A stretch of DNA of 64,000 nt from Thauera phenylacetica B4P (GTDB taxonomy: Bacteria; Pseudomonadota; Gammaproteobacteria; Burkholderiales; Rhodocyclaceae): assembly GCF_000310225.1 (NCBI RefSeq), contig NZ_AMXF01000001.1, forward strand, positions 62,001 to 126,000. Direction: 5' to 3'. The notes beneath the pieces are model-generated. The model did not search any database and was not told where the DNA came from. It saw only the letters and a program-made list of their open reading frames with translations. This document shows positions 33,568-64,000 of the stretch, one piece after another (the stretch's first letter is position 1; every line of letters starts with the position of its first letter). Position numbers and translations under genes: made by a program.

Positions 33568-33612
33568 GCATCGCGGGCGGGGTGTAGTTCTCCATACTTC
33601 CCTTCCACTGCC

Positions 33613-34148: not shown

Positions 34149-34156
34149 CGCCTTCC

Positions 34157-35600: not shown

Positions 35601-35646
35601 CGGACAGGCCGCTCAAGACGATTTTGGCTGATGGGAAGGAGCCGAC

Positions 35647-36624: not shown

Positions 36625-36649
36625 GCCTGCCGGCCAGCAAGGACACCCG

Positions 36650-44900: not shown

Positions 44901-46533
44901 GGAGCAGGGGCACGAGTTCGCTCAGATGGGGGCGCACCGCTACGCAGTGCGTCCCGGCGAGCGGGCAGACCTCGAGCGGCTACTGCGCCACGTGGAAGCG
45001 GAGGTCGGCCTGCCGTCCGATGTCTGTCATCTGTGGAATGTCGAGCTCGGAGACGTTCCGTCGCAACCGGAAGAAGTGCTTGAGCGCAGCTTCTTTAGTC
45101 TGCTGGCGCTGGCGCAGGTGCTGGGTGCCGCGGGCGGGCGAAAGGTCTCGCTCACGGTGGTGGCGAACCAGCTTGAGGATGTGACGGGAACCGAACCTTT
45201 GTGCCCAGAAAAGGCGACCCTGCATGGCCCCTGCAAGGTCATGCCGCAGGAGTATCCGCATCTCGCATGCCGGGTGGTCGACGTGCTGCCTTCTGCCGAC
45301 GCCGATGTGTTGGACCGGGTCGTGCAGCAGATCGTTGCCGAAATCGAGATGCCAGACGGCGAGTCGGTTGTGGCATACCGCGGCCCGCATCGTTGGGTGA
45401 GGACATTCGAGCCCGCCCATCCCGCGCTTCGAGGCGAAGAGGCTTCCGCCCAGCGGCTGCGCAAGAACGGCGTCTATCTGATCACCGGCGGCCTGGGCGG
45501 TATCGGACTCACGTTCGCTCGCTACTTGGCCCGGCAGTGGCAGGCACGGTTGGTACTGATCGGGCGCAACATCTCGTCGGACCAAGCCAAAGCGGTGGCC
45601 GAGCTGGAGGCGCTTGGTGCGGAGGTGTTGCCCCTTCAGGCCGACGTGGCCGATGCTGTACAGATGCGAGCGGCACTCGACGAGGTGCGGCGCCGCTTTG
45701 GCGTTTTGCATGGGGTTGTTCATGCGGCGGGTGTGGCGGGAGGCGGCATGATCGCGCAGCGGGAGCGTGCGGCAGTCGAGCAGGTGTTCGCGCCGAAGGT
45801 GTTAGGCACTCAGGTGTTGATGTCGCAAATCGCGAACGAGGCGCGTGATTTCGTTGTGTTCTGCTCCTCGCTCGCCAGCCTCGCTGGCGGTTTGGGCAAG
45901 GTCGACTATGCCGCCGCAAATGCCTATCTCGACGCAGTGGCAGCGGATGCCGCGCGTTCTCCCGGTGCATCGGTGGTCTCGGTCAACTGGGACGGTTGGC
46001 GCGAGGTCGGCATGGCAGCAGGGACGCCGCTGCCAGACCAATTTGGGATCGGACCCGAGCAGGGGGTGCTGATTTTCGAGCGCGTCGCTACCGGTTTTCT
46101 GCATCCACAAGTCGTCGTGTCAACGACCGACCTAAGCGCTCGTCTGGACGTGAATGGCGACGCCATTCTGTCCATCATGGCTGCCGAACCGTCCCCACAT
46201 CGACCCGATCGCAGCCATCCGCGTCCGCGCATTTCTGCTGAATATGTGGCGCCGTCCGGAGACCTTGAATGTGGTTTGGCTCGCATCTGGACCGATGTGC
46301 TCGGCATTGCTCCCCTGGGAGCGGATGACAACCTGTTCGAACTCGGGGGCGACTCGCTGCTTGCGATCCAACTGCTGGCCAAGGTGAGAAGCACTTACGG
46401 CGTCGACCTGCATCCTGCCGTGTTTTTCAGGGATCCCACGATTGCTGCCTTGGCTGTTCTCATCGAGATGCGTTTGATTGAAGAGATAGAGAACACTGAT
46501 TCCACGACACATCGCGTGTCCGAAAGCGCTTGA
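41986..46533 (+). CDS. Type I PKS module (KS-AT-KR-ACP)
   Basis: The protein has 1515 residues from [22 protein letters not shown] spans about 12-430 with Cys185 (TACSTS), His321 (EAHGTGT) and His361 ([10 protein letters not shown]). AT spans about 540-860 with Ser641 (GHSIGEY) and an HAFHS motif, which usually means malonyl-CoA. KR spans about 1164-1340 with GGLGGIG and the Ser and Tyr1308 ([12 protein letters not shown]). The ACP has Ser1457 ([13 protein letters not shown]). All catalytic residues are present. It adds and ketoreduces one C2 unit between the first and second amino acids, giving a beta-hydroxy-gamma-amino segment as in cupriachelin-like siderophores. Confidence 0.94.
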
Positions 46534-46543
46534 GAGATTTGCC

Positions 46544-49500
46544 ATGTCCGACAGTCTGAATCTTTCCACGCGCCGTGCAAATTTGAGCCTGACGCAGCGT
46601 GCCATGTTGCAGGCCCGGCTGCGCGGTGGGCATACGACCAACGCTGCACAGAGCATCACTCCGCGCCAACCCCGATGCGATCGCGCGACCCTGTCGTATG
46701 CCCAGCAGCGGCAGTGGTTTTTGTGGCAGATGAACCCGGAGAGTACCGCCTATCACATGTGCGGCGGACTGGCGCTTACTGGGCATCTTGATGTCAATGT
46801 CATTCGCAGCAGCCTTGATGCGCTCGTCGCCCGTCACGACTCCCTACGGACAACATTCCGTGCGGACGGCGAGGGTGTCGCCGAGCAGATCATCCACGCC
46901 CGTTCGGATATTCGTCTGCCCTACTTCGATCTATCGGACATGGGTGCCGATGAAAAAGCAGTTCGTCTGAAAGACGAGATCGAACGGAGATGCGCGCAGC
47001 CTTTTGTCCTTACGTCTGGGCCGTTGCTGCGCGCCGTGCTGTTCAAAACTGAGAAGAATGAGCATCACCTTGTCGTAGTGATGCACCACATTATTTCCGA
47101 TGAATGGTCGACTCAGATCATTCTCGATGAGATGGCCACTTTGTATGGTGCGTACCTTGAAGGCGCGTCGCCACAGCTGCCGGACTTGCCGATCCAGTAT
47201 GCCGACTATGCAGTGTGGCAAAGGGCATGGATCAACGGTGTAGAAGGTCAGCGCCAGCTCGCCTGGTGGCGAGCGCAGATGGGCGACGAGCATCCGGTGC
47301 TGGCATTGCCGACAGACCGGTCGCGCGCAGGTGACGGCCGATATACCGCGGCACGGCATCGCATCGTGCTGGAAGCAGAGCTTGTGGGCCGACTCCGGCA
47401 GCAGGCGCAGGCCCATGGTGGAACACTTTTCATGGCTCTCCTGACGGCCTTTGAGGCATTGCTGTTCCGGCATACGGGCCAGGCAGACCTTCGGGTTGGC
47501 GTGCCAGTGGCCAACCGCAATCACTCTGAGGTGGACAAGGTCGTTGGTATCTTTGTGAATGCCCAGGTGCTGCGCGCGCAGATCGATGGGCGGATGCCGT
47601 TGGCCGAGTTGTTGGCGCAAACGCGAAACGTTGCGCTTGGGGCTCAGGCGAATCAGGATCTCCCGTTTGAACAGTTGGTTGAAGCACTACAACCCGAGCG
47701 TCATTTGGCTACCCATCCCTTGTTTCAGGTGATGTTCAACCACTTGAGGCGCGACCATCGATCGTTGCAGATATGGTCGGGATTGACTGTGGAGCGCCTT
47801 GATTTCGATGAATCTGATGCTCAGTTCGAGTTGGCGCTGCAAACGTGCGAATACGAGGACGGCCAGATTGAAGCGAGCTTCAGCTATGCCCGGGAGTTGT
47901 TCGAACCTGAGACCATCGATCGGATGGCGGGCCACTACGTGGCGGTGCTGCGTGCGCTGGCCGACCATCCCGAACAGGCGGTAGGCGAGATAGACCTGTT
48001 GAGTGACGCCGAGCGTTGGCAGCTAGCCGATTGGGGCGTGAACGAGCGGCGGTACCCGGATGTGGAGCCGGTGCACCGGCTGATCGAGCGGCGGGTGCAA
48101 GCCCGTCCGGAAGCCACCGCGCTGGTGTTCGGCGACGAGGCCCTGACCTACGCGGAGCTCAACGCGCGAGCCAACCGCCTGGCGCACCGGCTGATTGCCT
48201 TGGGTGTGCGGCCGGAGGTGAAGGTGGGGATTGCGGTGGAGCGCTCCATCGAGATGGTGGTGGGCCTGCTGGCGATCCTGAAGGCGGGCGGGGCCTATGT
48301 GCCGCTGGACCCGGAGTATCCGGGCGAGCGGCTGGCCTTCATGGTTGAGGACAGTGGGATCGGGCTGCTGCTCACGCAAAGCCACTTGGCGGCGCGCGTG
48401 CCGCGCGGCGCTGCCCTGACCGTTCTGAAGTTGGACGCGCTCGATCTGGGCAATGAGCCTGCGGAGAGCCCCCCGTTTGCGCTGCACGGCGAGCACCCGG
48501 CCTACGTGATCTACACGTCTGGTTCCACGGGCAAGCCCAAGGGAGTGATGGTGCGCCACCGGGCGCTGAGCCATTTCCTGCACAGCATGCGGGATGCGCC
48601 CGGCCTGGCGGCCGACGACATCCTGCTGGCGGTCACCTCGCTGTCGTTCGACATCGCCGCACTCGAGCTCTACCTGCCGCTGATCAGTGGGGCCCGGATC
48701 GTGATCGCCTCGCGGGACGAGGCCCGCAACGGCGAGGCGCTCGCCCGGCTCATCGAGCAAAGCCAGACCACGGTGCTGCAGTGCACGCCGGCAAGCTGGC
48801 GACTGCTGCGGGCGGCCGGATGGCCGGGTGCCCAGGGTAGACGCTTCAAGGGCTTGTGCGGCGGTGAGGCCCTGCAGCCCGATCTGGCCCAGGATCTGCT
48901 CAGCATCGGGGTGGATCTTTGGAACATGTACGGTCCCACCGAGACGACGATCTGGTCCGCCGCGGGCCGGGTGGGGGAGGAGGGCCCGCCGCACCTGGGC
49001 CGAGCGATTGCCGCGACACGGTTGCATGTGCTCGATGGCGCGCTGAACCTCGTGCCGCAGGGCGTAGCGGGCGAGCTGTACCTGGGCGGCATCGGCTTGG
49101 CGCGCGGGTATCTGAACCGCGCGGGACTGAGCGCGGAGCGTTTTGTGGCCGACCCGTTCGGGGCCGATGGCGAGCGGCTGTACCGCACCGGCGACCTTGC
49201 GCGGTGGAACGCCGAGGAGCAGCTCGAGTACCTGGGCCGCATCGACCACCAGGTGAAGATCCGCGGTTTCCGGATCGAGGTGGGGGAGGTGGAGGCCCGA
49301 CTGCTGGCGCAATCCGGGGTGCGCGAGGCGGTGGTGGTGGCCAGGGAGGGGCCGGGCGGCGCGCGGCTGATGGGCTACGTCTCGGCGGTGGCGGGGCAGG
49401 CGATCGAGGCAGGCGAGCTGCGTGAGCGGCTGGGCCGGCAGTTGCCGGACTACATGGTGCCCAGTGCGGTGGTGGTGCTGGATGCGCTGCCGCTCAATGC

Positions 49501-52500
49501 CAATGGCAAGGTGGACAGGAAGGCGCTGCCGGAGCCTGGGCTGGAGGGCACACGCGAGTACGAGGCGCCGCAGGGCGAGGTGGAAGAGGCGCTGGCCAAG
49601 ATCTGGGCCGAAGTGCTGGGCGTGGAGCGCGTGGGGCGCCACGACAACTTCTTCGAGCTCGGCGGACATTCGCTGTTGGCGCTGAGTCTGCTCGAACGCA
49701 TGCGCGTGCAAGGCATGACCACGCAGGTTCGTACCCTGTTCCAACAGCCCGAACTGGCGGCCTTCGCCAAGGAGATATTGCAAGCGTCGGGGCGCAATGA
49801 AGTGATCGTGCCGCCCAACTTGATCCCGGCTGGTTGCCGGGCGATTCGACCAGAGATGCTGACGCTGCTCGAATTCGGGGCTGGCGAGATTGCTCGTATC
49901 GAAGCGGCGGTGCCGGGTGGGGCGACCAACATTCAGGACATCTACCCGCTGGCGCCGCTGCAGGAAGGCATCCTGTTCCACCACATGCTGCAAACGGAGG
50001 GCGATGCCTACGTTACCCCTTGTCTGCTGAGCTTCGATAGCCGGGAGCGGTTGGAGCACTTCATCTCCAGTCTCAACCGGGTGATAGAGCGCCACGACAT
50101 TCTGCGCACGGCGGTGCTGTGGGAGGGGCTCGGGGAGCCGGTGCAAGTCGTCCATCGACAGGCACAGCTTGAGATCGAGTGGCTGGAGGACGAAGTTGCG
50201 GGTAGCGTAGCCGATCGATTCAATGCCCACGTCGATCCGAGACATCACCGCATCGATGTGCGGAAGGCGCCGATGATCCGGGCGGTGGCCGCGTACGACG
50301 CGGAGCAAAGCCGTTGGCTGCTGCAATTGCCCAGCCATCACCTGGTACTGGACCACACGACGCTGGAACAGTTGGTGGGCGAGATCGCGCTGATCCAGCA
50401 GGGCAAGGAGGCCCAATTGCCCGAACCGGTGCCGTTCCGGCGCTTCGTGGCGCAGGCGCGGTTGGGTGTGAGCCGGACGGAGCACGAGGCCTTCTTCGGC
50501 AAGATGCTGGGCGATGTGGAAGAGCCCACGGCGCCGTTCGGACTGCTAGACGTGCAGGGAGATGGCAGTGATGTCGAGGAAGTGCGACTGCCGCTGGAGA
50601 CAGAACTGGCCAGGCAGATACGAGCGCAGGCGCAACGCCACGGGGTGAGCGCAGCCAGCCTGTTCCATCTGGCTTGGGCGCTGGTGCTGGGCAAGACGAC
50701 GGGCAAGGGCGACGTGGTGTTCGGCACCGTGCTGTTCGGACGCATGCAAGGAGGCGAGGGCGCGGAGCGGGCGCTGGGCATGTTCATCAATACCTTGCCG
50801 GTCCGCATTCGACTGGGGGGGCGCAGTGTGCTGCAAAGCCTGCGCGAAACCCAAGCGGTGCTGACGGGTCTGCTGCATCACGAACACGCCAGTCTGTCAC
50901 TGGCACAGCGGTGCAGTGGGCTGCCTGGGGGGACACCGCTGTTCTCGGCGCTGCTGAACTATCGCTACAGCGTGCAGCAGGACGAGGGCGAGACAGCCAG
51001 CGCTTGGGAAGGCATGGATGTGCTCGGCGGCGAGGAGCGAACCAACTACCCGGTGGGCATGTCGGTGGATGACCTGGGGCAGGGCTTCCGACTGGTGGGG
51101 CAGGTCCAGAAGACAGTCGGTGCGCTGCGGCTGTGTGAGTACCTGCGGGCGGCCGTTGCCGGTCTTGTGGAGGCGCTGGCCGACCATCCCGGACAGGCGG
51201 TAGGCGAGATCGACCTGTTGAGCGATGCCGAGCGTCGGCAGTTGGCCGATTGGGGTGTGAACGAGCGGCGGCACCCGGATGTGGAGCCGGTGCAGCGGCT
51301 GATAGAGCAGCAGGTGCAAGCCCGTCCGGAAGCCACCGCGCTGGTGTTCGGCGATGAGGCGCTGACCTACGCGGAGCTCAACGCGCGAGCCAACCGCCTG
51401 GCGCACCGGCTGATTGCCTTGGGAGTGCGGCCGGAGGCGAAGGTGGGGATTGCGGTGGAGCGCTCCGTCGAGATGGTGGTGGGGTTGTTGGCCATCCTGA
51501 AGGCGGGCGGAGCGTACGTGCCGTTGGATCCGGAGTATCCGGCCGAGCGGCTGGCCTACATGGTCGAGGACAGTGGGATCGGGCTGCTGCTGACGCAGAG
51601 CTGGGTCAGGGAACGCATCCCGGCGACAGAGCGGCTGGGGGTGCTGGAGCTGGATAGGCTGGACCTCGGCGGTGAGCCAGAGCACGACCCCAATGTTGCG
51701 GTGCATGGGGAGGGCCTGGCGTACGTGATCTACACCTCGGGCTCTACCGGGCGACCAAAGGGGGCGGCAATCCGGCACCGGTCGCTGGCCAGTTGCATGA
51801 CCTGGATGCAGCAAACCTATGGTCTGACGTCGACCGACACAGTGCTGCACAAAGCACCATTCGGCTTCGACGTGTCCGCATGGGAAATCTTCTGGCCGCT
51901 GACGGCGGGTGTGAGACTGGTAGTAGCCAACCCCGGCGACCACCGTGACCCCGAGCGGATCACCGAATTGATTCGCACGCATCAGATTACGACGCTGAAC
52001 TTCGTGCCTGCGATGCTGCAGGCCTTCTTGGCACACGAAGGCATCGAGGGAGAGACGCGGCTGCGGTACGTGATCTGCGGCGGCGAGGCCATGCCTGCGG
52101 CGACGCAAGGCGAAGCGCTGCGCCGGCTCGAAGGCGTGAGCTTGCAGAACCTGTACGGTCCGACCGAAACGACGATTCACGTTACACAGTGGAGTTGCCG
52201 GGATGACGGGCAGAGCTTGGTGCCGATTGGGCGCCCCATCTCCGGGACCAATGCCTATGTGCTGGATGGCGAGTTGAGCCCTGTACCGCAGGGCGTAGCT
52301 GGTGAGTTACTCATTGGTGGTGAGCTCTTGGCGCGGGGCTACCTGGGTCGCGCGGGGCTGAGTGCGGAGCGGTTCGTGGCTGATCCGTTCGACGAGGGGG
52401 GCGGCCGGTTGTACCGCACGGGGGACCTGGTGCGGTGGAACGCGGAGGGCCAGCTGGAGTATCTGGGGCGGTTGGACCACCAGGTGAAGATCCGCGGGTT

Positions 52501-55500
52501 CCGCATCGAGCTGGGCGAGATCGAGGCGCAATTGCTGGCGCAACCCGAGGTGCGCGAAGCGGTGGTGGTGGCCAAGGACGGGCCGGGCGGAGCGCGGCTG
52601 GTGGGCTACGTGTCCGCAGTGGCGGGGCACACCATCGATCCGGCCTTGCTGCGTGCACGGTTGAGCAAACAACTGCCCGACTACATGGTGCCCAGTGCGA
52701 TGGTGGTGCTGGAGAGCCTGCCGCTCAACGCCAACGGCAAGGTGGATAGGAAGGCGCTGCCCGACCCCGGGCTTGACGGTGAGCAGGCGTACGAGGCACC
52801 GCAAGAGGGGGTGGAAGAAGCGCTCGCCAAGATCTGGGCCGAGGTGTTGAAGTCGGAGCGGATCGGCGCAACGGACAATTTTTTCGAGCTGGGGGGGGAC
52901 TCCATTATCTCGATACAAATCGTCAGTCGCGCACGGCAGGCGGGCATTCGTATCGCCCCGAGAGATCTGTTTACCCACCAAACCGTGCGGGGGCTGGCTG
53001 CTGTTGCCGAGCTGGCCGATGCGCGCGCTGTGGATCAGGGACCGGTCACCGGGGAGGTGCCGCTGATGCCGATTCAGCGCTGGTTTTTCGAGAGGTTGAT
53101 CCCCGACCGACACCATTGGAACCAGTCGGTGGTTTTGACACCGATCCGTCCGCTCGACGGTGGCGCGCTCGACCGGGCACTCAGGGCGGTCATCGAACAT
53201 CACGATGCGCTTGGCCTGGGTTTCGTTGAAACCGCAGCGGGCTGGCGGGCGACCCACCGGAACATGCGCGCAGAATCCGTCCTTTGGCAATCGGCTGCAA
53301 CGGATGATGCAGCGCTCCAGGCGCTTTTCGACCAAGCGCAGCGCAGTTTGAACTTGCAGAATGGCCCCTTGCTGCGTGCCGTTCTCGCGACCTTGCCACA
53401 GGGTGAGCAGCGACTTCTGTTGACCGCCCATCATCTGGTCGTCGATGGCGTGTCGTGGCGGATCTTGCTTGAGGATCTGGAGCGCGTTTATCGTCAGGCG
53501 AGTGCCGGACAACCGGTGACGCTTCCGGCCAAAACGGGTTCTTTCAAGCGTTGGGCCGAGCATTTGCATCGCTATGCCGAAGGCTCGGACATGAGACTTG
53601 AGGTCGATCACTGGAAATCGCAGTTGCAAGGGGCTCCCATCGATCTGCCCGTTCGGTCCCGCGAGGGTCTTGTTTGTAGGTATGCGCAAACGGCGTATTC
53701 GCGACTCGATGCCGCGACCACGCAGAAGCTGCTGCATGCGGCAGCTGCGGCATACCACACGCAGATCAACGATCTGCTTCTGACCGCATTGGCCCGCGTC
53801 CTGACCCGTTGGATCGGCCATTCATCCGTGCTGATTCAGCTCGAAGGCCATGGCCGGGAAGAACTGTTCGATTCGATGGACCTCTCGCGCACGGTTGGGT
53901 GGTTCACGACGATCTTTCCGGTGCGGCTTACACCGCCGCCGGCGTTCGCAGACTCCGTCATGGCGATCAAGGAACAGTTACGGACCATTCCGAACAAGGG
54001 CATCGGCTTCGGCATCCTGCGCTATCTCGCGGATTCCGCATCGCGCGAAGCTGTGGGTGCGTTGCCCCAGCCGCGGGTCACCTTCAACTACCTCGGGCAG
54101 ATCGAGAGCGGATTCCAGAACGACAGTATTTTCAGACTTGCAAACGAAAGTGCGGGAAGAGGGCAGAGCTTGGACGCGCCTCTGGGTAACTGGCTGACGA
54201 TCAATGGGCAGGTTGTCGGTGGTCAACTGAGCTTCGGCTGGATCTACAGTTCTGAGATGTTCGATGCCGAAGTGGTGCAGCAATTGGCGGACGATTACGC
54301 GATGGAACTGCACGATCTCACCGAGCATTGCTGCGAGGTGAAAAATTCGACCATCACAGTGTCGGATTTTCCATTGCTGCGAATGAGCCCATCGGAGTTC
54401 GATGTCTTGCCGGTCTCTCATGCGGATGTCGAACAGGCTTATCCGCTCTCGCCGATGCAGCGATCCATGTTGTCGAGCGCTGCCTGCGAAGATGGGGACC
54501 ACATCTACCAACTGTGTGTGGACTTGCTGGATGTGGATGTGCAAAGGCTATACGGCGCCTGGCAGGCAGTCGCCGCTGTGCACGATGTGTTGCGGACGGG
54601 CTTTGTCGTGGGCAGCAGGCCGCTTCAGGTGGTCTACCGCAGCACCAGGGTGCCATTTGAAGTGCGCGATGGCAGCAACATGACGGCAGCGGATCTAGAG
54701 GCTTTGGCCGCTGCCGAGCGCATTGCCGGCTTTGATATGGCCCAAGCACCCTTGTTCCGCCTGCTTGCCGTGCAGACCACCGGAAATTCCCATCGTTTGA
54801 TCTATACCAGCCACATGATTCTTGTCGACGGCTGGAGCGGTTCTCGCCTGCTGGGCGAAGTGTTGCAGGCTTACGCCGGCAACCCTCCGGCACGACCGCG
54901 CGGGAATTACGGGGAGTATCTCGCTTGGCTGGAGAGCAGGGATCACACGGCTGACGAAAAATTCTGGAAGAACCAGATATCCAGACTGAACGCCCCCACC
55001 CTGTTGGGGCGGTCTTGCGCGACCTCCGAAGCCAACGTCCACGGGCATCACATGGCCGCATGTGACGCGCAAGAAACGCAATGCTTGCGGTTGTTCGCGC
55101 AGCGGAATCGGTGCACGTTGAATACGCTCGTGCAAGCTGCCTGGCTGCTGATGATCTGGAAGGAGCGTGGCTGCGCGACGGTTGGCTGCGGCATGACCTT
55201 GTCCATCCGACCCGCAGAGCTGCCAGACATCGAGCGGCAGCTTGGTCTTTATGTGAACGATGTTCCTCTGATCGTGACGATAGAAACTGAGCGGCCCTTG
55301 GGTCAATGGTTAACTTCGATTCAGGATCTCAACGTGGAAATTCGCCATCACGGGCAGACTGCGCTGAGTGATATCGAGTGTTGGGCGGGACAGCGACCGC
55401 TGTTCGATAACGTGATCGTTTTTCAAAACTACCCCTTGACGGGAGTCACGGCGCTGGATGCCAGCGCAGGCCCACGGATCGAGCACCTGCAAGCCCGGGA

Positions 55501-55705
55501 GCAAACAAGTATTGATCTCACCTTGTACGTCTACGCGGAAGAACGTCTGGAGTTCCACTTCGATTACCGACAGCATGCATTTTGCCAAGAAGCGGTTGCC
55601 GAACTGGGTCGTTGTTTGACCGAGACGCTTGTGGCGTTTGCCGTGAGCGATGCGGACGCGCGTGTTTGCGATGTCGCCTGGCGGGCAGATCAGAGGAATG
55701 GCTGA
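46544..55705 (+). CDS. NRPS (C-A-T-C-A-T-E-C) ending in an orphan condensation domain
   Basis: The protein has 3053 residues from [21 protein letters not shown]1 is at about 52-463. A1 is at about 498-1000, with pocket D-I-L-Q-L-G-M-I-W-K (glycine type), and T1 has [10 protein letters not shown] (about 1037). C2 is at about 1134-1543, and its start [10 protein letters not shown] resembles the dual epimerisation/condensation signature. A2 is at about 1570-2080, with pocket D-V-W-N-I-G-L-I-H-K (closest to threonine codes), and T2 has [11 protein letters not shown] is at about 2170-2603 ([15 protein letters not shown]). C3 is at about 2630-3033 ([10 protein letters not shown]). The protein then stops 19 residues into what would be the C-A linker. 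No A, T or thioesterase follows, and a broken IS3-family element lies just downstream. Confidence 0.93.
47954..48382 (+). repeat. Left flank of A1, near-identical to 51173-51601
   Basis: These 429 bases (end of C1 linker to first third of A1) align without gaps to 51173-51601 in A2 and differ at scattered sites only. At the protein level both run [20 protein letters not shown] and on to GIGLLLTQS. See the matching right-flank repeat. Confidence 0.85.
49061..49615 (+). repeat. Right flank of A1, near-identical to 52292-52846
   Basis: About 555 bases spanning the end of A1 and the A-T linker (motifs [19 protein letters not shown]) align gap-free to 52292-52846 of A2. The stretch between the two flanks, which holds the substrate pocket, is clearly different between A1 and A2. 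Confidence 0.82.
51173..51601 (+). repeat. Left flank of A2, copy of 47954-48382
   Basis: Second copy of the A-domain left-flank block, in the same frame and of the same length as the copy in A1 (offset 3219 bases). Confidence 0.85.
52292..52846 (+). repeat. Right flank of A2, copy of 49061-49615
   Basis: Second copy of the A-domain right-flank block (offset 3231 bases). The different offset from the left block shows that the core between them has a 12-base length difference. Confidence 0.82.
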
Positions 55706-55829
55706 TCGTGCGGCGGGGGGTAGAAAGCGAGGGCAGCTCCCAGTATCCTCTTGAGAAACAGATGTGATGATTGAGGTCATCATGTAGCAGTTACGACCGA
55801 TTTAGTTGATCTGGAGGCCGAGAGCAGCA

Positions 55830-56279
55830 GCGCGTTGGCGCTGGGCAGCAGAACACCCGAGAGCGTCATCCATCACGGTGATCAGGGGAGCCAGGGCGGC
55901 TCCACTCGCATTCGGCAAGCGCTGTCACGAAATGGGAGTTCGCCCGTCGATCGGTACGGTTGGCGATGCCTACGACAACGCAATGGCCGAGAGCTTCTTT
56001 GCCGGCCTTGAGTGCGAACTGATCGACCGCAAGACCTTCCGGACGAAGACCGAAGCGCGTCTGGCCGTCTACACCTGGATCGAGGGCTGGTACAACCCGC
56101 GCAGGCGGCGTTCCGCGCTGGGCTACCTCTCACCGATGAACTACGAGGAAAAACACCGCGCAACTCAAGCGAATCTCGACAAACCCGGGTTACCGACCGG
56201 GCCGCTCGCCCCTGGCCTGGATGGGGCCGGCGGCGGCCCCGTGGGTAACCCTGCTATCGAGTACGATCACACGGCTTGA
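55830..56279 (+). pseudogene. IS3-family transposase (OrfB) C-terminal remnant, frameshifted
   Basis: FGKRCHEMGVRPSIGTVGDA, AMAESFFAGLECELIDRKTF and WIEGWYNPRRRRSALGYLSP, ending near 56277, are the C-terminal integrase-core sequences of IS3-family OrfB (last DDE glutamate in AESFF). Upstream, the VIHHGDQGSQ segment (around 55867-55896) is in a different frame, so there is a frameshift at about 55900. OrfA and most of OrfB are missing. The right end is probably the GGGGCCAACTCCA at 56309-56321. The element abuts the 3' end of the truncated NRPS and lies 11 bases from the receptor stop. Confidence 0.85.
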
Positions 56280-56331
56280 TTTCCAAGCCACAAACCGTCC
56301 ACCGGATGGGGCCAACTCCAGTGTTGCCGCT

Positions 56332-58713
56332 TTACCACCGGTAAGTTGCGGTTGCGGTGACAGTGCGTTCTTCGCCGCGATACCAGCCGTCGAAGGCATT
56401 GCTTGTGTAATAGCGTTTGTTGAATAGGTTGGTGGCGTTCAGCGCAAGGCGCCAGTGGCTGTCCAGGTCATAACGCAGGCTTGCGTCGAACAGCGTGAAG
56501 CCTGGCTGTGATTTGGTGTTGGCGGCATCGTCCCACCGCTTGCCAACGTACCGTGCGCCTGCACCAATGTTCAGACCGTGCAGGCCGCTATCGCGAAACG
56601 TGTAGTCAAGCCACAGCGATGCCATCTGTTTGGGGGCCTGAATCGGCGTCTTCCCTTGCTCCACATACCAGGTGTCGCCTTTGCGGCCTTTGATGTCGTT
56701 GTAGGTGAAAGAGGCTGTAGCAAAGAGGCCGGGCATCAGCTTGCCCTTGGCTTCCAATTCAAGGCCGCGCGAGCGCACGGCACCGACTTGCTCGCTCACT
56801 CCACTGAGAGGGTGGGTCACCGAGATGTTCTCTTTCTGCAGCTCGAATACCGCAGCAGTCAACAACAGGTCACCGCTCTTGGGCTGGTACTTGACGCCTG
56901 CTTCCCACTGTTTGCCTTCGGTGGGCTTCGCGTCCAGCGCGTCAAATGCCCCGAACGCCGGCTGGAACGAGGTGCCGTAGCTGACATAAGGTGCCCAGCC
57001 GCCCGGGGCAAGCCAAGTCAACGCTGCACGACCGGTCCAGGCTTTGTGCGTGCTACTTTGAGTGCCGCCCCGAGAGGACGAACTGTCCTCCCCCTTCGCC
57101 GTGTCGTGCCTGCCTGATAGTGTGAGCAGCCATCGGTCCGCGAACTTGGCCTGATCCTGTACGTACAAGCCCACGCTACGGAGCTTGTTGGGGCCATAGA
57201 CGCCGCCGGGGGTGTTGGGGGCGGGAATTGGCAGGTATACCGGGTTTAGCAGGTCCAGATCCGGGGCGCTTCCCGTCAGATATTGTTCTTTGGCGCGCAC
57301 ACGGGTCCAGTCCACGCCGGCAATCAGCCTGTGCGCTACATCGCCGGTCTGGAGCCGGCCCTCAAGAAAACTGTCAAGCGAAGTTTGCTTGAGATCGCCA
57401 AATCCGTGAACCGCAGTCCGCGTGAACGTCCGCCCGTCGGCTTGCAGCGACGACCAGATATGGTGCTTGTCTGTCTCGCGGTCCGCGTAGCGGAATTTCT
57501 GCCGAAAGCCCCAGTTGTCGCTGAACTCGTGGCGGAACTCGTATCCCAAGGTCCATGCCTTATGGACAATGTTGCTGTAGCGCGGATCACCTTCGCGAAC
57601 GTTGGTTGGTTGCCTGTTCGCGTCAGCCACATAACCGACATCGTCGCCAGCCTCATGTTGAAGCGTGGATGCGAGCAAGGTCAGCGACGTGGCTGCTGAG
57701 GGTTGCCACAACAGAGAGGGGGCGAAGTACTGGCGCTTGGTTTCGGCCCTCTCACCCCCCGGATACTTCGCCTGATCGTCGTTGCTTCGCGTCAACCCAA
57801 CCAGGCGGAACGCGAGATCGTCTCCAATCCGGTCACCATAGTCTATGGCCAATTGCCGGTGCTTGAAGTTGCCAAGCTGCACCTGGGCCTCTCGGATGGG
57901 TTCGTTCAATGATGGCCGCTTGCTGACGCGGTTGACGATACCGCCGACATCACCCTGCCCAAAGGTGGCCGAGGACGGACCACGCAACACTTCGATGCGC
58001 TCCATGCCGTAGACCTCGGTCATCTGGCCGATATCGACAAAACCCAATTGCGCCAACCCATCCAGGTAGTCGTGGGTCGAACTGTCAAAGCCTCTCAGGG
58101 TCAGGAATTCGTAGCCACGGTCGTCACGTCCATAGGTACGCGTGAAGACTCCCGGCGTGTAGTTGAGGGTATCGAGGACCTCCCGCATGCCCTTGGTATC
58201 GATCTCCTCGCGCCCGATCACGGAAACGGACTGCGGGACTTCGGTGATGGGCGTATCGGTCTTAGTCGCGGTGGCGCTGCGCTTGGCAGCGTAGCCCCTA
58301 ACCGGCCCAGTAGCCGTTTCAGGTTCCGCACCCGCCTTCACTGTCACGGTTGGCAGCATCGCCCCTTGGTCGGCGGGCGGACGGGCGGCCTTGATCACCA
58401 TGGAGCCTCCTTCCTGCGTGGCCACAAGCCCGCTGCCGGTGAGGAGTTGATTGACAGCCTCGCGCGGCGTCAGGTTGCCTTTGACCGCTGGCGCCTTCTT
58501 GCCCGCGACAAGGGCGGGGGAGAAGGCCACGGGAACGCCCGTCGCCGCGGCCAGTTCGTTCAGTGCGGCGTCGAGTGATTGCGCCGCGATGGAGATGGCC
58601 ACCGGCTTGTCTGTGGTGGCGGTCTGGGCATGAACAAGCCCGGGAGCGCTGATGGCCAGGGCAATGGCGAGGGTGAGTGGAGCGAGGTTGAAGTGGAGGT
58701 GCGGGTGGCGCAT
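56332..58713 (-). CDS. TonB-dependent siderophore receptor with STN domain
   Basis: The protein has 793 residues from MRHPHLHFNLAPLTLAIALA. It has a signal peptide (to GLVHAQT), STN domain (about 45-100, ISIAAQSLDAALNELAAATG), TonB-box and linker region, plug (about 155-280, EVPQSVSVIGREEIDTKGMREVL, then GPSSATFGQGDVGGIVNRVSKRP) and a 22-strand-type barrel. It ends with the aromatic ATATYRW expected for outer-membrane assembly. FecR and a sigma factor lie upstream in the same direction, so it is a signalling ferric-siderophore receptor, probably for the product of this locus. An inverted repeat TTAAGAGT/ACTCTTAA (58727-58767) is upstream. Confidence 0.95.
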   Translation of the reverse strand: MRHPHLHFNLAPLTLAIALAISAPGLVHAQTATTDKPVAISIAAQSLDAALNELAAATGVPVAFSPALVAGKKAPAVKGNLTPREAVNQLLTGSGLVATQEGGSMVIKAARPPADQGAMLPTVTVKAGAEPETATGPVRGYAAKRSATATKTDTPITEVPQSVSVIGREEIDTKGMREVLDTLNYTPGVFTRTYGRDDRGYEFLTLRGFDSSTHDYLDGLAQLGFVDIGQMTEVYGMERIEVLRGPSSATFGQGDVGGIVNRVSKRPSLNEPIREAQVQLGNFKHRQLAIDYGDRIGDDLAFRLVGLTRSNDDQAKYPGGERAETKRQYFAPSLLWQPSAATSLTLLASTLQHEAGDDVGYVADANRQPTNVREGDPRYSNIVHKAWTLGYEFRHEFSDNWGFRQKFRYADRETDKHHIWSSLQADGRTFTRTAVHGFGDLKQTSLDSFLEGRLQTGDVAHRLIAGVDWTRVRAKEQYLTGSAPDLDLLNPVYLPIPAPNTPGGVYGPNKLRSVGLYVQDQAKFADRWLLTLSGRHDTAKGEDSSSSRGGTQSSTHKAWTGRAALTWLAPGGWAPYVSYGTSFQPAFGAFDALDAKPTEGKQWEAGVKYQPKSGDLLLTAAVFELQKENISVTHPLSGVSEQVGAVRSRGLELEAKGKLMPGLFATASFTYNDIKGRKGDTWYVEQGKTPIQAPKQMASLWLDYTFRDSGLHGLNIGAGARYVGKRWDDAANTKSQPGFTLFDASLRYDLDSHWRLALNATNLFNKRYYTSNAFDGWYRGEERTVTATATYRW

Positions 58714-58726
58714 CGAGGTCTATTCC

Positions 58727-58767
58727 TTAAGAGTGGCGTGAATGAAAATAAGTCTCACTACTCTTAA
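58727..58767 (-). promoter_or_regulatory. Inverted repeat in the receptor promoter region
   Basis: TTAAGAGT (58727-58734) and ACTCTTAA (58760-58767) are perfect 8-base inverted repeats 25 bases apart, just upstream of the receptor start at 58713. The interval holds an AT-rich AATGAAAATAAGT. It may be part of the FecI-type promoter or a binding site for another regulator. Confidence 0.4.
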
Positions 58768-58837
58768 AGACGCGCGACCAATCCAGATGTACACCCCTTT
58801 CGCAACTTTTTCTTACACAGACCGGGTGGTCTTGAGG

Positions 58838-60046
58838 TCAGTGCGCCTTGACGACCTCGGTGTTGCCGTCGGCCAGCGCGACCAGGCGTACCGGGAGAAT
58901 CTGCGGCAGCACACCAGCGAACATGTCCGGGCGGCCGATCTGGTAGCTGCCACCGATGCGCAATGCCGCTACTTCCGGATCCCGGATCACCAGGCGGGTA
59001 GCGTGGTATCGCTCCAGTTCGTGCACCGCATCGGACAGAGGGGTGTTCGTGAAGCGCACCAATCCTTGCCGCCAGGGGGCAACGCTGGCAGGGGAGATGG
59101 ACGAGACCTGGCTCATCTGACCGGAAAGCGAGACCTGGACGCCCTGGCCTGCAGACAGTTCGACGGAATGGGGATGGAGGGGACTGGACTGGTCGCGGGC
59201 GTCGATGGTCACGTCGGCTACCCTGACGCGCCCGTCCTCCACCGCAACGTTCACGGTTCCGGCATCGGCACCGTCCTTCATATAGCGGACCGCAAAGCGT
59301 GTGCCCACCACCGTGACACGGGCGGGGCCGGCCAGAACGTCAAAGGGCTTGGCGGTGTCCGGTGCCACGGTGAACATGGCCTGACCATGCGCCATGCGGA
59401 CTTCACGGCGACTGCGGTAGAGCGAGACCTCCAGGCGGGTGTCCGCGTCGAGCGTCAGATGGCTGCCATCGGGCAGCGGCACGTCCAGCCGCTGTCCTTG
59501 CTTCGCCGCATAGGTGCTGGCAAAGGTCGGCTGCGTCCACTGGTACCAGGCAATGCCGGCGGCCATCGTGCAAACGCCACAAAGCGCTGCAACCCCGGCG
59601 CCGAAACCGCGCGGCCACCATGAGCGGGCGCTCGGCGCGGGTGAGCGCCGCGGGCCATTGTGCGGGCGCTGCTTTTGCTCGGTGGGTGGGGTGTCGGTGC
59701 CCTGCTGGGTTGGCCTCTCTGGCTGGTTCACGGGAGACCCGCGACGGGGCGTGCACAGATGCGCCACCCGCTCTGCTGGCACGCTGCGAAGCAGGCGAAT
59801 GCTCTCGTCCACCTGTGCCCAGGCGCTTGCGTGGGCCGGATGGGCTGCGCGCCAGGACTGGAACTCGGCCTCCTCAATGGCGCTGAGCCCTTGCTCCCGG
59901 CGCGTGTGCCAGTCCGTCGCGGCGACGTCGACCGGATCCTGGTCGCGGACGAATGCCTCGAGTTCCCGCGAGGCCACTTCATCGAGAGAGGCATCCGCGG
60001 ACGGTGAGCAACAAGAAGAGCCCGTGGGGGCTGTCGTTCGGATCAT
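58838..60046 (-). CDS. fecR: FecR-family transmembrane sigma regulator
   Basis: The protein has 402 residues from MIRTTAPTGSSCCSPSADAS (GTG at 60073 is an alternative start). The sigma-binding part is VAATDWHTRREQGLSAIEEAEFQSWRAAHPAHASAWAQVDES. A Pro-rich linker with a single membrane helix (FGAGVAALCGVCTMAAGIAWYQW) follows, then the FecR domain (QRLDVPLPDGSHLTLDADTRL, then VTVVGTRFAVRYMKDG) and C-terminal IGGSYQIGRPDMFAGVLPQILPV. It relays receptor occupancy to the sigma factor at 60118. It lies between its sigma gene and receptor gene on the same strand. Confidence 0.92.
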   Translation of the reverse strand: MIRTTAPTGSSCCSPSADASLDEVASRELEAFVRDQDPVDVAATDWHTRREQGLSAIEEAEFQSWRAAHPAHASAWAQVDESIRLLRSVPAERVAHLCTPRRGSPVNQPERPTQQGTDTPPTEQKQRPHNGPRRSPAPSARSWWPRGFGAGVAALCGVCTMAAGIAWYQWTQPTFASTYAAKQGQRLDVPLPDGSHLTLDADTRLEVSLYRSRREVRMAHGQAMFTVAPDTAKPFDVLAGPARVTVVGTRFAVRYMKDGADAGTVNVAVEDGRVRVADVTIDARDQSSPLHPHSVELSAGQGVQVSLSGQMSQVSSISPASVAPWRQGLVRFTNTPLSDAVHELERYHATRLVIRDPEVAALRIGGSYQIGRPDMFAGVLPQILPVRLVALADGNTEVVKAH

Positions 60047-60117
60047 CTTATTTGTATAGACGCACGAGGCCACGCAAAACTACACCCCGCAGTATCGACT
60101 CGGTGCGCAAGGGTTCT

Positions 60118-60738
60118 CTATTCCTTGGCATGGCTGCCCTTCTGCGTCTGCCTGCATGCGGCGCAGGCCAGTTTGCCGCGGCTGATGTACTGGTTGACCA
60201 TGCTGAGCGAGATGCCCATGCGCTGCGCGATCTCCTTGTTCGGGAGTTCATCGAAAGCGTAGAGGCAGAACGCTTCGCGGCATCGGGTCGGCAACCCCTC
60301 GATGGCCTTGAGATAGGCCTCGGCCGCCTGCGAGGAGGCGTAGATCTCCTCGGGCTGAAGATGTTGCGGCTGGGTCGGCAGGACGGCCTCGTCGAGTTCA
60401 TCGATGTTGTCGTGCCGCCGGATATCCGCGCGCCGATCCATGTCGATCTTGGCGTTCAGGGCCACTTGTCGCAGCAGGGCCCGAGGCTCGAGCACCGCTT
60501 GCCCGGCCTGCTGCATGGCCAGGACGCGCGCGTAGCTCTCCTGTGCCAGGTCGGCCGCAGTGTCGTGATCCTTGACCTTGCGCAGGCAGAAGTTCAGGAG
60601 TTCCCGATAGTAGCGAGTGATCACAGTCCAGCCAGCGCCCCAAAGTGACGACGTTTCCTGGCAAGGGCATGCGTCAAGCCGGCTGTGGTGGATCACCGAC
60701 GCCGCGCCGCCAGGGCTCGAGGCCATTCCCGGACGCAC
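60118..60738 (-). CDS. fecI: FecI-like ECF sigma factor of the siderophore receptor unit
   Basis: Region 2 (AADLAQESYARVLAMQQ, ALLRQVALNAKIDMDRR) and region 4 (AIEGLPTRCREAFCLYAFDELPNKEIAQRMGISLSMVNQYISRGKLACAACR) are those of FecI-type sigma factors. The frame from 60738 gives 206 residues. The first 38 look unrelated, and a GTG at 60624 (VITRYYRELLNFCLRKV) would give 168 residues, the usual length, so the true start is probably there. A Fur box at 60861-60877 lies upstream. Confidence 0.88.
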   Translation of the reverse strand: MRPGMASSPGGAASVIHHSRLDACPCQETSSLWGAGWTVITRYYRELLNFCLRKVKDHDTAADLAQESYARVLAMQQAGQAVLEPRALLRQVALNAKIDMDRRADIRRHDNIDELDEAVLPTQPQHLQPEEIYASSQAAEAYLKAIEGLPTRCREAFCLYAFDELPNKEIAQRMGISLSMVNQYISRGKLACAACRQTQKGSHAKE

Positions 60739-60860
60739 GGCGTGGCTATATGGCTAGCGTAGGCCAAGCGAAGCAGGGCTCGGCGCTTACCAGGGGCGGG
60801 TCTCTCCCTGGGATCGGGGGGGACCCAATCCCTGGCAGCGAGGCCTCTGTAGCATCATTC

Positions 60861-60877
60861 GGAATGACAATCATTCC
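60861..60877 (-). promoter_or_regulatory. Fur box upstream of the sigma/FecR/receptor unit
   Basis: GGAATGACAATCATTCC is an inverted repeat (GGAATGA and TCATTCC arms around CAA) that matches the Fur consensus core AATGATAATCATT. It sits between the stop of the monooxygenase gene and the sigma factor start, so it most likely gives iron repression of the fecIRA unit at 60738-56332. Confidence 0.78.
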
Positions 60878-60999
60878 ATTCTACTCGAATGTCCGCGATC
60901 TGACCACTATGAGTGCCTGCGCTTGTGTCCCGCGTTCGGTGGGGCTTGTTACTCCAAGGAAGTGACCCATCGATCCTTCCTTGGGGCGTGGCGTGACGC

Positions 61000-62301
61000 T
61001 CAGGTGGTGGCAGCAGCGAGTTTTTCCGTGCTGGCGCCAGGCTTGCGCACGGTGGATGATTCCAGCGCATCGATGATCTCCTTCACGCGCAGGGCCGTCA
61101 CGGAGAGCAGGGTGTCGCTCAGCCCATGGCTGCCCTCGCATGCCCCTTGCAGAAAGATGGCCGGCTGGAACTCGGTGGCAGACCTGAGACGGTAGTTGCG
61201 GTCCACCTGGAGATCGCCCAGGTGCTTGGCGAGCGGGGTGAGCAGGGGCTTGTGGTTCTCGCGCTCGTACCCCGTTGCCAGCACCACGGCGTCGTAGCGC
61301 CGCGTGAGTTCCATGTTCTGGTCCAGATCGCGCAGCACGAGTTCAACTCCGTCTGCGCGCGCATTTGCGCTCAGTACCTCGTGCCGCCGCAGCAGGTGAT
61401 GGCGATCGCCGCGCACGACCCGTTGTTCGTACAAGATCTTGTAGATCTGCTGAATGAGTTCGAGATCCGGGGCCGCGTAGTTGGTGCGGTGGAACTCCTG
61501 CAGCAGTTTGGCGCGGGTGGCTTCGTCCTGCTGGAACATGTGATCGGTGAAATCCGCGTTGAAGATGCCGTTGACGAACGGGCTGTCGTCGGACGGGTGC
61601 AGGGCCCGGCCGCGCATGATCAGGTCGACGTCGGTGGGCTCCGCTCGGTTGTGCAGGTCGACGAAGATCTCTGCCGCGCTCTGGCCGCCTCCGATGATGG
61701 CGACCTTGCGCGCGTTGCGGTTGGCTGCAATGCCGGTGAGGTAGCCGTTTGAATGGAAGACGCGGGCCTCGCCTGCCAGCTTCTTGAAGCAGTCCGGCAC
61801 CTTGGGCGACCCGCCGACGCTGACCACGAGGTTGCGTGCCAGGCGATCCCGCACGGCGCCTCGTTGGTCACGGGATCGCACCCGCAGCAGGGGAACGTGA
61901 CCGTCCTTTTGCTCAGGCAGCACCTCGATGACCTCTTCGGCATATGCGCAGATGTCGTCGAACTGGCGAGCAGCCCACCCGAGGTAGTCGCTGAACTCGT
62001 GGCGACTCGGGAAGAAGGACTTGAGGTTGATGAAGTCGGGCAGCCGGCCTTGCTCGTGCAGGTAGTTCACGAAGGTGAAGCGGCTGCGCGGGTTGCGCAG
62101 CGTCGCCAGATCCTTCAGATAGGAGATCTGCATGTGGGCATGGTCGAGCAGCATGCCCGGGTGCCAGGAGAAGCCGGCTTGCTTTTCGATGAAGAACGCG
62201 TCGATGGGGCGGTGCCCTGCCTGTCGTTCTTCCTGGAGGGCAATGGCGAGGGCGATGTTGGATGGCCCGAATCCGATTCCGATCAGATCATGGATGTGCA
62301 T
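61000..62301 (-). CDS. L-ornithine N5-monooxygenase (siderophore hydroxylase)
   Basis: The protein has 433 residues from MHIHDLIGIGFGPSNIALAI (TGAGGA upstream). FAD motif GIGFGPSN, the SWHPGMLLDHAHMQISYLKDL segment, NADPH motif AIIGGGQSAAE, the lysine/ornithine-hydroxylase stretch FNADFTDHMF and ATGYERE are all present, as in PvdA, OrbX and DelL. It hydroxylates the side-chain nitrogen of ornithine to make the hydroxamate precursor. A siderophore-sigma promoter on the minus strand (62506-62530) lies 205 bases upstream. The longer frame to 62505 is unsupported. Confidence 0.93.
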   Translation of the reverse strand: MHIHDLIGIGFGPSNIALAIALQEERQAGHRPIDAFFIEKQAGFSWHPGMLLDHAHMQISYLKDLATLRNPRSRFTFVNYLHEQGRLPDFINLKSFFPSRHEFSDYLGWAARQFDDICAYAEEVIEVLPEQKDGHVPLLRVRSRDQRGAVRDRLARNLVVSVGGSPKVPDCFKKLAGEARVFHSNGYLTGIAANRNARKVAIIGGGQSAAEIFVDLHNRAEPTDVDLIMRGRALHPSDDSPFVNGIFNADFTDHMFQQDEATRAKLLQEFHRTNYAAPDLELIQQIYKILYEQRVVRGDRHHLLRRHEVLSANARADGVELVLRDLDQNMELTRRYDAVVLATGYERENHKPLLTPLAKHLGDLQVDRNYRLRSATEFQPAIFLQGACEGSHGLSDTLLSVTALRVKEIIDALESSTVRKPGASTEKLAAATT

Positions 62302-62505
62302 GCGGTGGTCCTCACGAGGTGGTGCTGATGGATGGGGCATCTGAGATCGTCGACACAAAAGACATCGATGAAGACGCCGATGACGCACGGCCGCAGATCG
62401 GTCGTGAGGGGGCCATCTCGGTCCGGACGGGCTGCGCCATAGCACCGCACCGGGGATGTCCGGCGCAGAGGAGCTCATGGCGTGATGGCGGTCCCATGCC
62501 AACAA

Positions 62506-62530
62506 GACGGGGGAGGGCTTTGTTTGTTTA
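62506..62530 (-). promoter_or_regulatory. Siderophore-sigma promoter for the ornithine monooxygenase
   Basis: Read on the minus strand: TAAA (62530-62527), 17 bases, CGTC (62509-62506). The spacer starts CAAAC, as in the promoter before the mbtH-like gene (CAAAT). It is back-to-back with the plus-strand promoter at 62556. Confidence 0.72.
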
Positions 62531-62555
62531 GTCCGCAGGGCTCCGCGAGCGTGGC

Positions 62556-62580
62556 TAAACAGATGCGCGGCTGGTACGTC
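62556..62580 (+). promoter_or_regulatory. Siderophore-sigma promoter for the formyltransferase/acylase genes
   Basis: TAAA (62556-62559), 17 bases, CGTC (62577-62580), 128 bases before the formyltransferase ATG at 62708. It shares TAAACA with the other two promoters of this type. Confidence 0.72.
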
Positions 62581-62707
62581 TTATGAGGCAACACACCTGA
62601 TCGCGAGCGCAAAGTAGCTGGCTGCGTGAATCGGATCAGGCCGTGGACACCAGGATGCGTGCCGGTTGGCAGGCGTCTTCGCCAGAACATGCCTCTTCAT
62701 ACCGACC

Positions 62708-63556
62708 ATGGCTCAGAAACGTCTTGTTTACATCTGGTCCCTCAGGAACGCCGCCGCGGACAAGGCGGGCCAGCACATCAACTACAAGGCCGAGGCGCGG
62801 TACATGCCCTCGCCACTCGAGCATCTGGTGACCCTGCTCAACGAAGGCCCCTTGGGCGAGCATTTGGTGCTCGACCGCGTGATCTTCGATGACGACGAGG
62901 GTTCTCCCGCAGACCGGGCCAAGCTGGCCGACTACGGCTTCACGCCTCGGCCCGGGGGGGCGTGGTTCTACCCTCCGGGGCTGACCGTCCAGGGGCGTGC
63001 GCTCAACGACTTGCTCACGCCCGTGCCCTCGACCTACCGGCGTTTGCCGCTGAACGATCCCCGGCGCGCCAGTGGCAAGCATGATTTCGAGGAGCGCCTG
63101 CTGGCTGCGCTGACCGACGTGCAGGCCGATGTCGTCGTGCTGGATGGCTTGCTGGTCATCCTGGATGAGTTGGTGCGTCCGGGGGCGCCATTCGCCCGGC
63201 GCATCTACAACATCCATCCCGGAATCACGCGGGATGGCTCGACCCACCAGCGGCGCGGCGCCTACGCCACGCTCGACGCCCTGCATGGCGCGCGGGGCAG
63301 GAAGGTGGTGAACTGGCAGACGATGGAGGACATCGACGTGCCCGTGGTTCGTCAGACCGGCGCGTCTTTCCATTACGTTGACAACGGCATCGACTCCGGA
63401 GAAGTCGTGGCCGACGTCCTGGCCACCGACATCGACCCCGAGGACACGATTTTGGAGCTGCGCTGGAACAACTTCCATCGCAGTCTTTTCCCGGCGCTGG
63501 AGCGGGGCCTCGCCAAGGTCGTGGGCGTCGAGCTGGGAGTGGCCCATGCCTGCTGA
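62708..63556 (+). CDS. N5-hydroxyornithine formyltransferase
   Basis: The protein has 282 residues from MAQKRLVYIWSLRNAAADKA. NIHPGITRDGSTHQRRGAYA carries the Asn-x-His of the formyl-THF transferase active site, with a later Asp in NGIDSGEVV. The family resembles PvdF, DelP and CucK-type enzymes that convert N5-hydroxyornithine to N5-formyl-N5-hydroxyornithine, the hydroxamate iron ligand. It is divergent from the monooxygenase that makes its substrate and overlaps the downstream acylase by 11 bases. Confidence 0.9.
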   Translation: MAQKRLVYIWSLRNAAADKAGQHINYKAEARYMPSPLEHLVTLLNEGPLGEHLVLDRVIFDDDEGSPADRAKLADYGFTPRPGGAWFYPPGLTVQGRALNDLLTPVPSTYRRLPLNDPRRASGKHDFEERLLAALTDVQADVVVLDGLLVILDELVRPGAPFARRIYNIHPGITRDGSTHQRRGAYATLDALHGARGRKVVNWQTMEDIDVPVVRQTGASFHYVDNGIDSGEVVADVLATDIDPEDTILELRWNNFHRSLFPALERGLAKVVGVELGVAHAC

Positions 63557-64000
63557 ACCCGGGATCGCGCGGGCGTGGGGGCAGCGGTGTGCCTCGGGCG
63601 CGGTGCTGATCGCCGCGTTTTCGCTCCTGATGCCCCATCAGGCGCGCGCCCGTGGGGCGTCGGATGAAGCGATGGCCGCAGTCGCGCGATCCATCGAGAT
63701 CCGGCGCACCACCGATGACATTCCGCACATCCGAGCGACCGGATGGCGCGACCTGGGCGTTGGCATCGGGTATGTGCAGGCGCAGGATGCGCTGTGCACG
63801 CTGGCGGAGTCGTTCGTGACCAACGAAGGTCGACGATCCATTTTTTTTGGCGCGGAGCAGCGTCCCTCGGTTGATTCCAATGTGGGGCGATCGAAGAACA
63901 TCGACTCGGACTTCTTCTTTCGGGCCTTTGTCGATGACGCTGCGGTGGCGCGTTTCCAGGCCGAGCAGCCCCGTGAGTTGAACGAACTCGCAGAGGGTTT
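63546..64000 (+). CDS. PvdQ-like/penicillin-amidase-family acylase (3' end beyond window)
   Basis: From ATG 63546 about 151 residues are seen. A signal peptide (SGAVLIAAFSLLMPHQARAR) is followed by IRRTTDDIPHIRATGWRDLGVGIGYVQAQDALCTLAE, the start of the alpha subunit of Ntn-hydrolase acylases. In pyoverdine synthesis PvdQ removes the fatty acyl tail from the precursor in the periplasm; related enzymes also cleave acyl-homoserine lactones. The catalytic Ser and beta subunit lie outside the window. It is coupled to the formyltransferase. With a FAAL starter on the NRPS, a deacylation role is plausible. Confidence 0.85.
   Translation, partial: MPAEPGIARAWGQRCASGAVLIAAFSLLMPHQARARGASDEAMAAVARSIEIRRTTDDIPHIRATGWRDLGVGIGYVQAQDALCTLAESFVTNEGRRSIFFGAEQRPSVDSNVGRSKNIDSDFFFRAFVDDAAVARFQAEQPRELNELAEG

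Follow-up and report, generated by a model that had tools for sequence, protein, structure and literature searches.

Lipopeptide siderophore synthetases of the variochelin type, described from Variovorax, combine a non-ribosomal peptide synthetase (NRPS) with a polyketide synthase (PKS) and have, in the available part of their description, an acyl start, a TauD domain before an aspartate module, and serine and ornithine modules (PMC10999976). These features are shared by the siderophore locus studied here, which lies in a window of 64,000 nucleotides of Thauera phenylacetica B4P (assembly GCF_000310225.1, contig NZ_AMXF01000001.1, positions 62,001 to 126,000; all coordinates below are those of the window). 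The variochelin-type TauD domain ends the PKS according to the same partial source, whereas here TauD ends an NRPS and Gly-Ser stands before Asp. Furthermore, the last NRPS here is cut after a condensation (C) domain, and a terminal thioesterase (TE) was not found in the genome. The delftibactin and delftichelin systems of Delftia have an NRPS-PKS, β-hydroxyaspartate, modified ornithines and a formyltransferase in common with this locus, and the legends of their pathway figures list a TE, whereas the line here ends in a C domain without a catalytic histidine (PMC11472818, PMC13122642). We found no description of this cluster in the available portions of the literature, which is not proof of absence.

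Two sequenced relatives were also compared. Acidovorax facilis DSM 649 (L187, L128) has flanks of 93.6 to 94.7% identical DNA, the same start of the line and a terminal adenylation (A) domain 86.6% identical to the last one here, but ends in C-A-T-TE (T, thiolation domain), and its NRPS core and receptor barrel are unlike those of the window. An Eleftheria terrae plasmid (L178) shares TauD, a fatty acyl-AMP ligase-NRPS, C-TauD, interface-A(Asp)-T, C-A-T-E-C (E, epimerisation domain), a convergent receptor and the ornithine oxygenase; it goes on with A-T-E-C-T and a separate TE, and the stretch gave no PKS match. The last NRPS of the window and its surroundings comprise the following features:

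46544-55705, plus strand: NRPS, as assembled C-A(Gly)-T-C-A-T-E-C
51389-51472, plus strand: repeat J, 84 bp, identical to both ends of contig C176 and in frame; putative junction of the looped-out C176
51473-52345, plus strand: A domain core, code DVWNIGLIHK, modified-ornithine type, 86.6% identical to the A. facilis terminal A domain
53048-54367, plus strand: E domain, 2 of 61 near-invariant columns altered
54431-55639, plus strand: orphan terminal C domain, HHxxxDG motif reading HMILVDG from 54812, Met codon 54815-54817
55806-56279, plus strand: IS3-family relic, the last third or so of a transposase, frameshifted (PF13683, PF13333)
56332-58713, minus strand: TonB-dependent receptor with STN, plug and barrel; N-terminal STN part A. 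facilis-like, plug and barrel diverged

We hold with good confidence that two things are combined in this locus, namely a segment looped out by the assembly (C176) and a genuine loss of the NRPS 3' end. The 8.8-kb C176 segment would belong at 51389-51472, from which it would have been looped out by way of a repeat of 84-95 bp shared by two A domains, and the real line would be acyl-[Lys/Orn-type]-malonate-Gly-Ser-(β-OH)Asp-(N-OH)Orn. The last NRPS would have lost at least a T domain and the TE, probably A-T, and perhaps C-A-T too, with the other end of the deletion within the IS3 element that is now a relic. The remaining C domain, deprived of its catalytic histidine, would be vestigial and the line would functionally end at the Orn-type module. 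Such a chain should still bear the usual iron ligands; if released at all, it might be freed slowly by a stand-alone thioesterase or through cyclisation of the hydroxyornithine on itself.

Contig C176 and the order of modules

The draft assembly comprises 681 contigs, and a profile search of all of it gave nine Condensation matches, each on the 229-kb contig of the window (C1, inside the window) or on C176; no further C domain was found by this genome-wide search. The suggestion of the preliminary description, made from the window alone, that a missing NRPS had moved beyond 64000 thus finds no support in the assembly.

C176 is an 8,916-bp contig whose minus strand encodes three open reading frames (ORFs). 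The first is open at its 5' edge and encodes A(DVWHVSLIDK)-T-C-TauD, closing with the TauD domain; the second (1035 aa) has a weak, degenerate C domain (Condensation match of only 84.8 bits), A(DLTKVGHVGK) and T; the third begins with C and leaves the contig edge early within an A domain. The initial 84 bases of C176 are identical to its final 84, and the sole other location of this 84-mer, with 40 of 61 candidate places scored, is window 51389-51472, in the second A domain of NRPS 46544-55705, where the reading frame agrees. At the left edge of repeat J the copies diverge immediately, and at the right edge the match to the C176 start extends 11 bp, giving a repeat of 84-95 bp. With C176 reinserted, the first protein has 2990 aa and the last 1962 aa, without internal stops. 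Both broken C176 genes require a partner with the 84-bp sequence, and NRPS 46544-55705 is the only one found. The pattern of repeats is what would be expected from an assembly graph in which a loop is joined to a path via the repeat, and the NRPS seen in the window is most likely a mis-assembled one from which C176 was looped out. GC content was dropped as evidence of C176 membership since the first 20 kb of contig C5 likewise stand at 0.624. Repeats within such clusters are able to cause misassembly, according to the part of the source available (PMC5484115).

Synteny pointed the same way. The E. terrae plasmid and the Variovorax PDNC026 plasmid (L177), which resembles the variochelin-type system, both carry C-TauD followed by interface-A(Asp)-T and C-A-T-E-C, matching the restored order. 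Upstream of repeat J the line reads C-A(Gly-like)-T-C-A(Ser-like) as in Variovorax, where the type of C domain found just 5' of the repeat precedes a Ser-type A domain, in agreement with the restored and not the assembled order; a second copy of that C type in Variovorax precedes a different A domain. A correctly assembled window, with C176 as a distinct NRPS locus or as a circle that was excised, is very unlikely. The assembler did join both flanks, and homologous A domains could recombine, but both broken genes stop within an A domain and need the 84-bp partner, which was found only in this NRPS and in frame, and the synteny in relatives favours insertion.

Several points weigh against the looping-out of C176 by the assembly. 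Its splice into the NRPS draws on the contig ends and synteny; C176 could be a circle excised in some cells; Janthinobacterium (L179) has the C-TauD/interface-A(Asp)-T pair with its later modules arranged otherwise; and the assembly may be a composite, contigs C256 and C272 bearing similar copies of one hydrolase gene. These two copies (L012 and L069), which lie on short contigs and are not identical, could be paralogues or a hint of two strains in the draft.

A-domain codes were taken from an alignment, with positions set by PheA numbering, and read along the line DGEDHGTVVK, DILQLGMIWK, DVWHVSLIDK, DLTKVGHVGK and DVWNIGLIHK. We take DILQLGMIWK, DVWHVSLIDK and DLTKVGHVGK to be Gly, Ser and Asp codes, respectively, and the degenerate C domain on C176 to be an interface domain. 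An Asp-coded A domain with a degenerate, interface-like C domain lies beside a TauD hydroxylase, on C176, and the restored line is probably C-A(Gly)-T-C-A(Ser)-T-C-TauD, interface-A(Asp)-T, C-A(Orn-type)-T-E-C. The available part of one source lists DVWNIGLIHK among modified-ornithine codes and gives DGEDHGTVVK in Lys domains, 90% identical to an Orn code (PMC12283262). The first A domain is called Lys/Orn-type and may take either substrate; as DGEDHGTVVK is listed with Lys domains, a third ligand at that module is uncertain, a point against the reading proposed above.

The preliminary description had seen no module for hydroxyornithine or hydroxyaspartate. For ornithine this was mistaken, as DVWNIGLIHK stands in the window, and for aspartate it holds within the window only; with the Asp module on C176, it is wrong to say that modules of this kind are absent. 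A search of the rest of the genome for an NRPS with ornithine or aspartate codes and a TE, proposed there as a check, yielded the Asp module of C176 and no terminal TE. This locus illustrates how the looping-out of modules by an assembler, at a repeat shared by A domains, can mislead the reading of an NRPS cluster: product prediction from this contig alone would omit Ser and hydroxyaspartate and overstate the deletion.

The 3' end of the last NRPS

ORF 46544-55705 is open over 3053 aa. Its last Pfam match is Condensation, at residues 31-433 of the final 454, leaving 21 residues to the stop; as had been described, no A, T or TE domain lies 3' of it. Nor was a terminal TE found in the genome, using a thioesterase profile search and the A. 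facilis TE as query, the latter retrieving nothing in a search run without a positive control. The line-end thioesterase release domain of the siderophore NRPS-PKS class was thus not found here. The best PF00975 match was a type II thioesterase (139.7 bits), the other seven being at or below 34.4 bits. Three of these above the cut-off (C272, C256 and C22; 28.7-34.4 bits) were rejected as ordinary-looking α/β hydrolases remote from any NRPS. Other AMP-binding and carrier-protein matches were rejected as the missing NRPS because they are without an accompanying Condensation domain; C185, the sole contig read among them, has a carrier-plus-ligase gene.

We compared this 3' end with those of relatives. 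The terminal C domain was matched in 66 of 80 fetched loci at the threshold used; the frame continues for at least 500 aa in 58, the locus ends first in four, and a stop follows within 200 aa in four. Among closer relatives, 17 instances of this C domain were readable: 13 lead into an A domain, two (on small A. facilis contigs) into the first A-domain residues at a contig edge, two (E. terrae and G586) into a T domain without A, and none into a stop. Ten relatives could be read to their 3' end, and each of them carries a thioesterase. In a nine-locus set, eight loci have a PF00975 thioesterase above the cut-off (35-106 bits), with L217, which ends at a contig edge, not counted; a receptor adjoins the TE in seven of these eight, in six of them on the other strand. 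A TE and a convergent receptor are also present in A. facilis (TE of 51.5 bits) and in E. terrae (31.7 bits). L177 and L179, outside this set, were covered only in part. Since relatives run past this C domain and carry a TE, and no thioesterase follows here, the 3' end of NRPS 46544-55705 is best read as a derived truncation. The A-less C-T plus TE that follows E-C in E. terrae (L178:23101-34867, separate TE) and G586 (L224:8763-11393, fused TE) is an unusual terminal architecture.

Close relatives with the same NRPS end were not found, five of 150 genomes having matched, the own genome included, and the others at 30-35% identity. In the genus of A. facilis one of 47 genomes matched, A. facilis itself; in its family 11 of 399 did, A. 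facilis included, with a best identity of 47% (nine of the ten other matching genomes were read, G563 being left out). A search for the Asp module within the taxonomic order matched two of 399 genomes, the own one included. These searches score few candidates per genome (two in the Asp-module and A. facilis-family searches), so copies can be missed.

The orphan C domain itself looks vestigial, judging from its residues. The second His of HHxxxDG, which we take to be the catalytic residue, is Met here and His in 129 of 130 aligned matches and in all ten further ones. An intact HHxxxDG, as in functional C-terminal condensation release, is therefore not present, and with the catalytic His replaced by Met, release by this domain is unlikely. 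In addition, seven of 40 near-invariant columns are altered, and fewer are altered in 53 of 57 representative relatives; the adjoining E domain, by comparison, is conserved. The lone exception among the 130 matches has Ser, in L113, and is itself a terminal C-T. This acidobacterial NRPS (L113:3982-5700) thus ends in C-T with a C domain likewise without the catalytic His.

That the terminal C domain is a natural end, which frees the chain by condensation with a free amine, is hardly probable. The second His is Met, all ten readable relatives have a TE, and an IS relic lies at the junction, although four distant NRPSs (L113, L118, L138 and L143; 24-32% identity) do stop within 200 aa past such a C domain, L118 having masked bases there, and a C domain (C4 of module 4) has been proposed to add putrescine to a malleobactin-type siderophore, in the part of the source available (PMC4786211). 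The same four NRPSs show that a natural terminal C domain is not unheard of, and they count against a derived truncation. So do the facts that the ORF of the orphan C domain remains open, and that four relatives, more distant overall, have seven or eight altered columns. Moreover, relatives' terminal TEs score down to 31.7 bits, so that a diverged TE could be overlooked here, and E. terrae and G586, with C-T-TE without A, suggest that less than A-T-TE may have been lost.

Next to the truncated NRPS, and before the receptor on the other strand, the IS3 fragment with its left part missing was confirmed. ORF 55806-56279 matches the end of the integrase core only (PF13683, PF13333). Compared with copies on Azospirillum and Methylobacterium plasmids, it begins near '...VIHHSDQGSQ' and changes frame, and about 70% of the transposase gene is absent; there is no complete transposase and hence no intact IS3 element, only a frameshifted C-terminus. 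Scoring 40 of 42 candidates in the assembly gave a single copy, and a multi-copy IS was rejected as the source of a misjoin at 55.7 kb. Window 54000-58000 had no match in the plasmid collection by near search.

The IS3 element may plausibly have caused the deletion of the NRPS 3' end, but the relic also lacks sequence on the side that faces the NRPS, unlike the outcome of a simple IS-end deletion. The larger event put forward in the preliminary description, an IS-linked deletion that took the hydroxyornithine and hydroxyaspartate modules together with the release domain and left a crippled pathway or a much shorter product, we regard as rather improbable. The truncated NRPS does adjoin the relic and no terminal TE was found, but the Asp module is on C176 and the Orn-type module in the window. 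What stands of that proposal is the truncation, also upheld by the suggested comparison with homologues, none of the 17 closer C-domain instances running to a stop.

Flanking genes, receptor and mobility

The start of the line and its accessory genes are as follows:

34091-34897, plus strand: stand-alone (type II) thioesterase, PF00975 139.7 bits, clearly the strongest thioesterase match of the genome; also in A. facilis
35647-36624, plus strand: stand-alone TauD-type (aspartyl) β-hydroxylase, PF02668 E=1.5e-46
36545-41989, plus strand: NRPS 1, fatty acyl-AMP ligase-T-C-A(DGEDHGTVVK, Lys/Orn-type)-T, with an A. facilis orthologue
41806-46533, plus strand: PKS, KS-AT-KR-ACP
61000-62505, minus strand: L-ornithine N5-monooxygenase (Lys/Orn oxygenase family), PF13434 401.6 bits
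62666-63556, plus strand: formyltransferase-like protein, PF00551 28.5 bits (cut-off 26.1), with an A. facilis orthologue

The line thus starts with an acyl-AMP ligase and includes a PKS module, and its modified-ornithine module is accompanied by an ornithine oxygenase, also a feature of the variochelin family, and by a formyltransferase-like protein that presumably formylates hydroxyornithine. Profile matches bore out that the oxygenase, formyltransferase and TauD hydroxylase genes remain. Taken with the A codes, the oxygenase, the formyltransferase and the two TauD hydroxylases indicate that hydroxamate and hydroxyaspartate ligands are both encoded. A. facilis keeps its type II thioesterase alongside a terminal TE, and the normal role of the stand-alone enzyme is therefore probably proofreading.

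Window 30181-46491 is 94.7% identical to A. facilis and 58199-64000 is 93.6% identical, while segment 46492-58198 is non-collinear. The receptor is 87.7% identical over 171 residues in its N-terminal part and 50% identical as a whole protein. The kept N-terminus, the diverged remainder and the non-collinear core together suggest that the peptide core and the receptor barrel changed together, and they look to have been swapped as a cassette. This bears on the joint diversification of siderophores and receptors.

Nine genes or parts of genes in the flanks were compared with their A. facilis counterparts, and the ratio of non-synonymous to synonymous substitution rates (dN/dS) was 0.045-0.221, with dS of 0.08-0.37. 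Such low values, which are averaged over both lineages, imply that selection maintained the flanking genes through most of the period after the two lineages separated. This purifying selection argues against a crippled pathway, although the averaged ratios are compatible with a recent loss of function, which may have occurred. As a tentative proposal, a siderophore synthetase that is shortened but works, with no thioesterase in cis, could halt at N-hydroxyornithine behind a dead terminal C domain and release its product by cyclisation or by the stand-alone thioesterase, having arisen after the core and receptor-barrel swap on a mobile element. That the line functionally ends at Orn is probable. 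Loss of the release end and decay of the last C domain under purifying selection on the flanks raise the question of whether such a line can release a product with no thioesterase in cis.

Matches to the plasmid conjugation genes traC, traD and traU were noted on C1 (L190) and at window 5837-7429, and the siderophore cluster would seem to be carried by a plasmid or conjugative element; the ends of C1 do not overlap.

Further genes were noted 5' of the cluster. A LuxR-type autoinducer receptor and, after it, a DUF4902 protein (30037-31487) could place the siderophore under quorum control. At 23299-28455 (minus strand), a 1718-aa protein with methylase-like and helicase-like parts has weak DrmD, mad2 and BrxH matches and is a possible defence protein, and at 21835-23049 a Fic protein matches the SoFic defence model with 406.7 bits.

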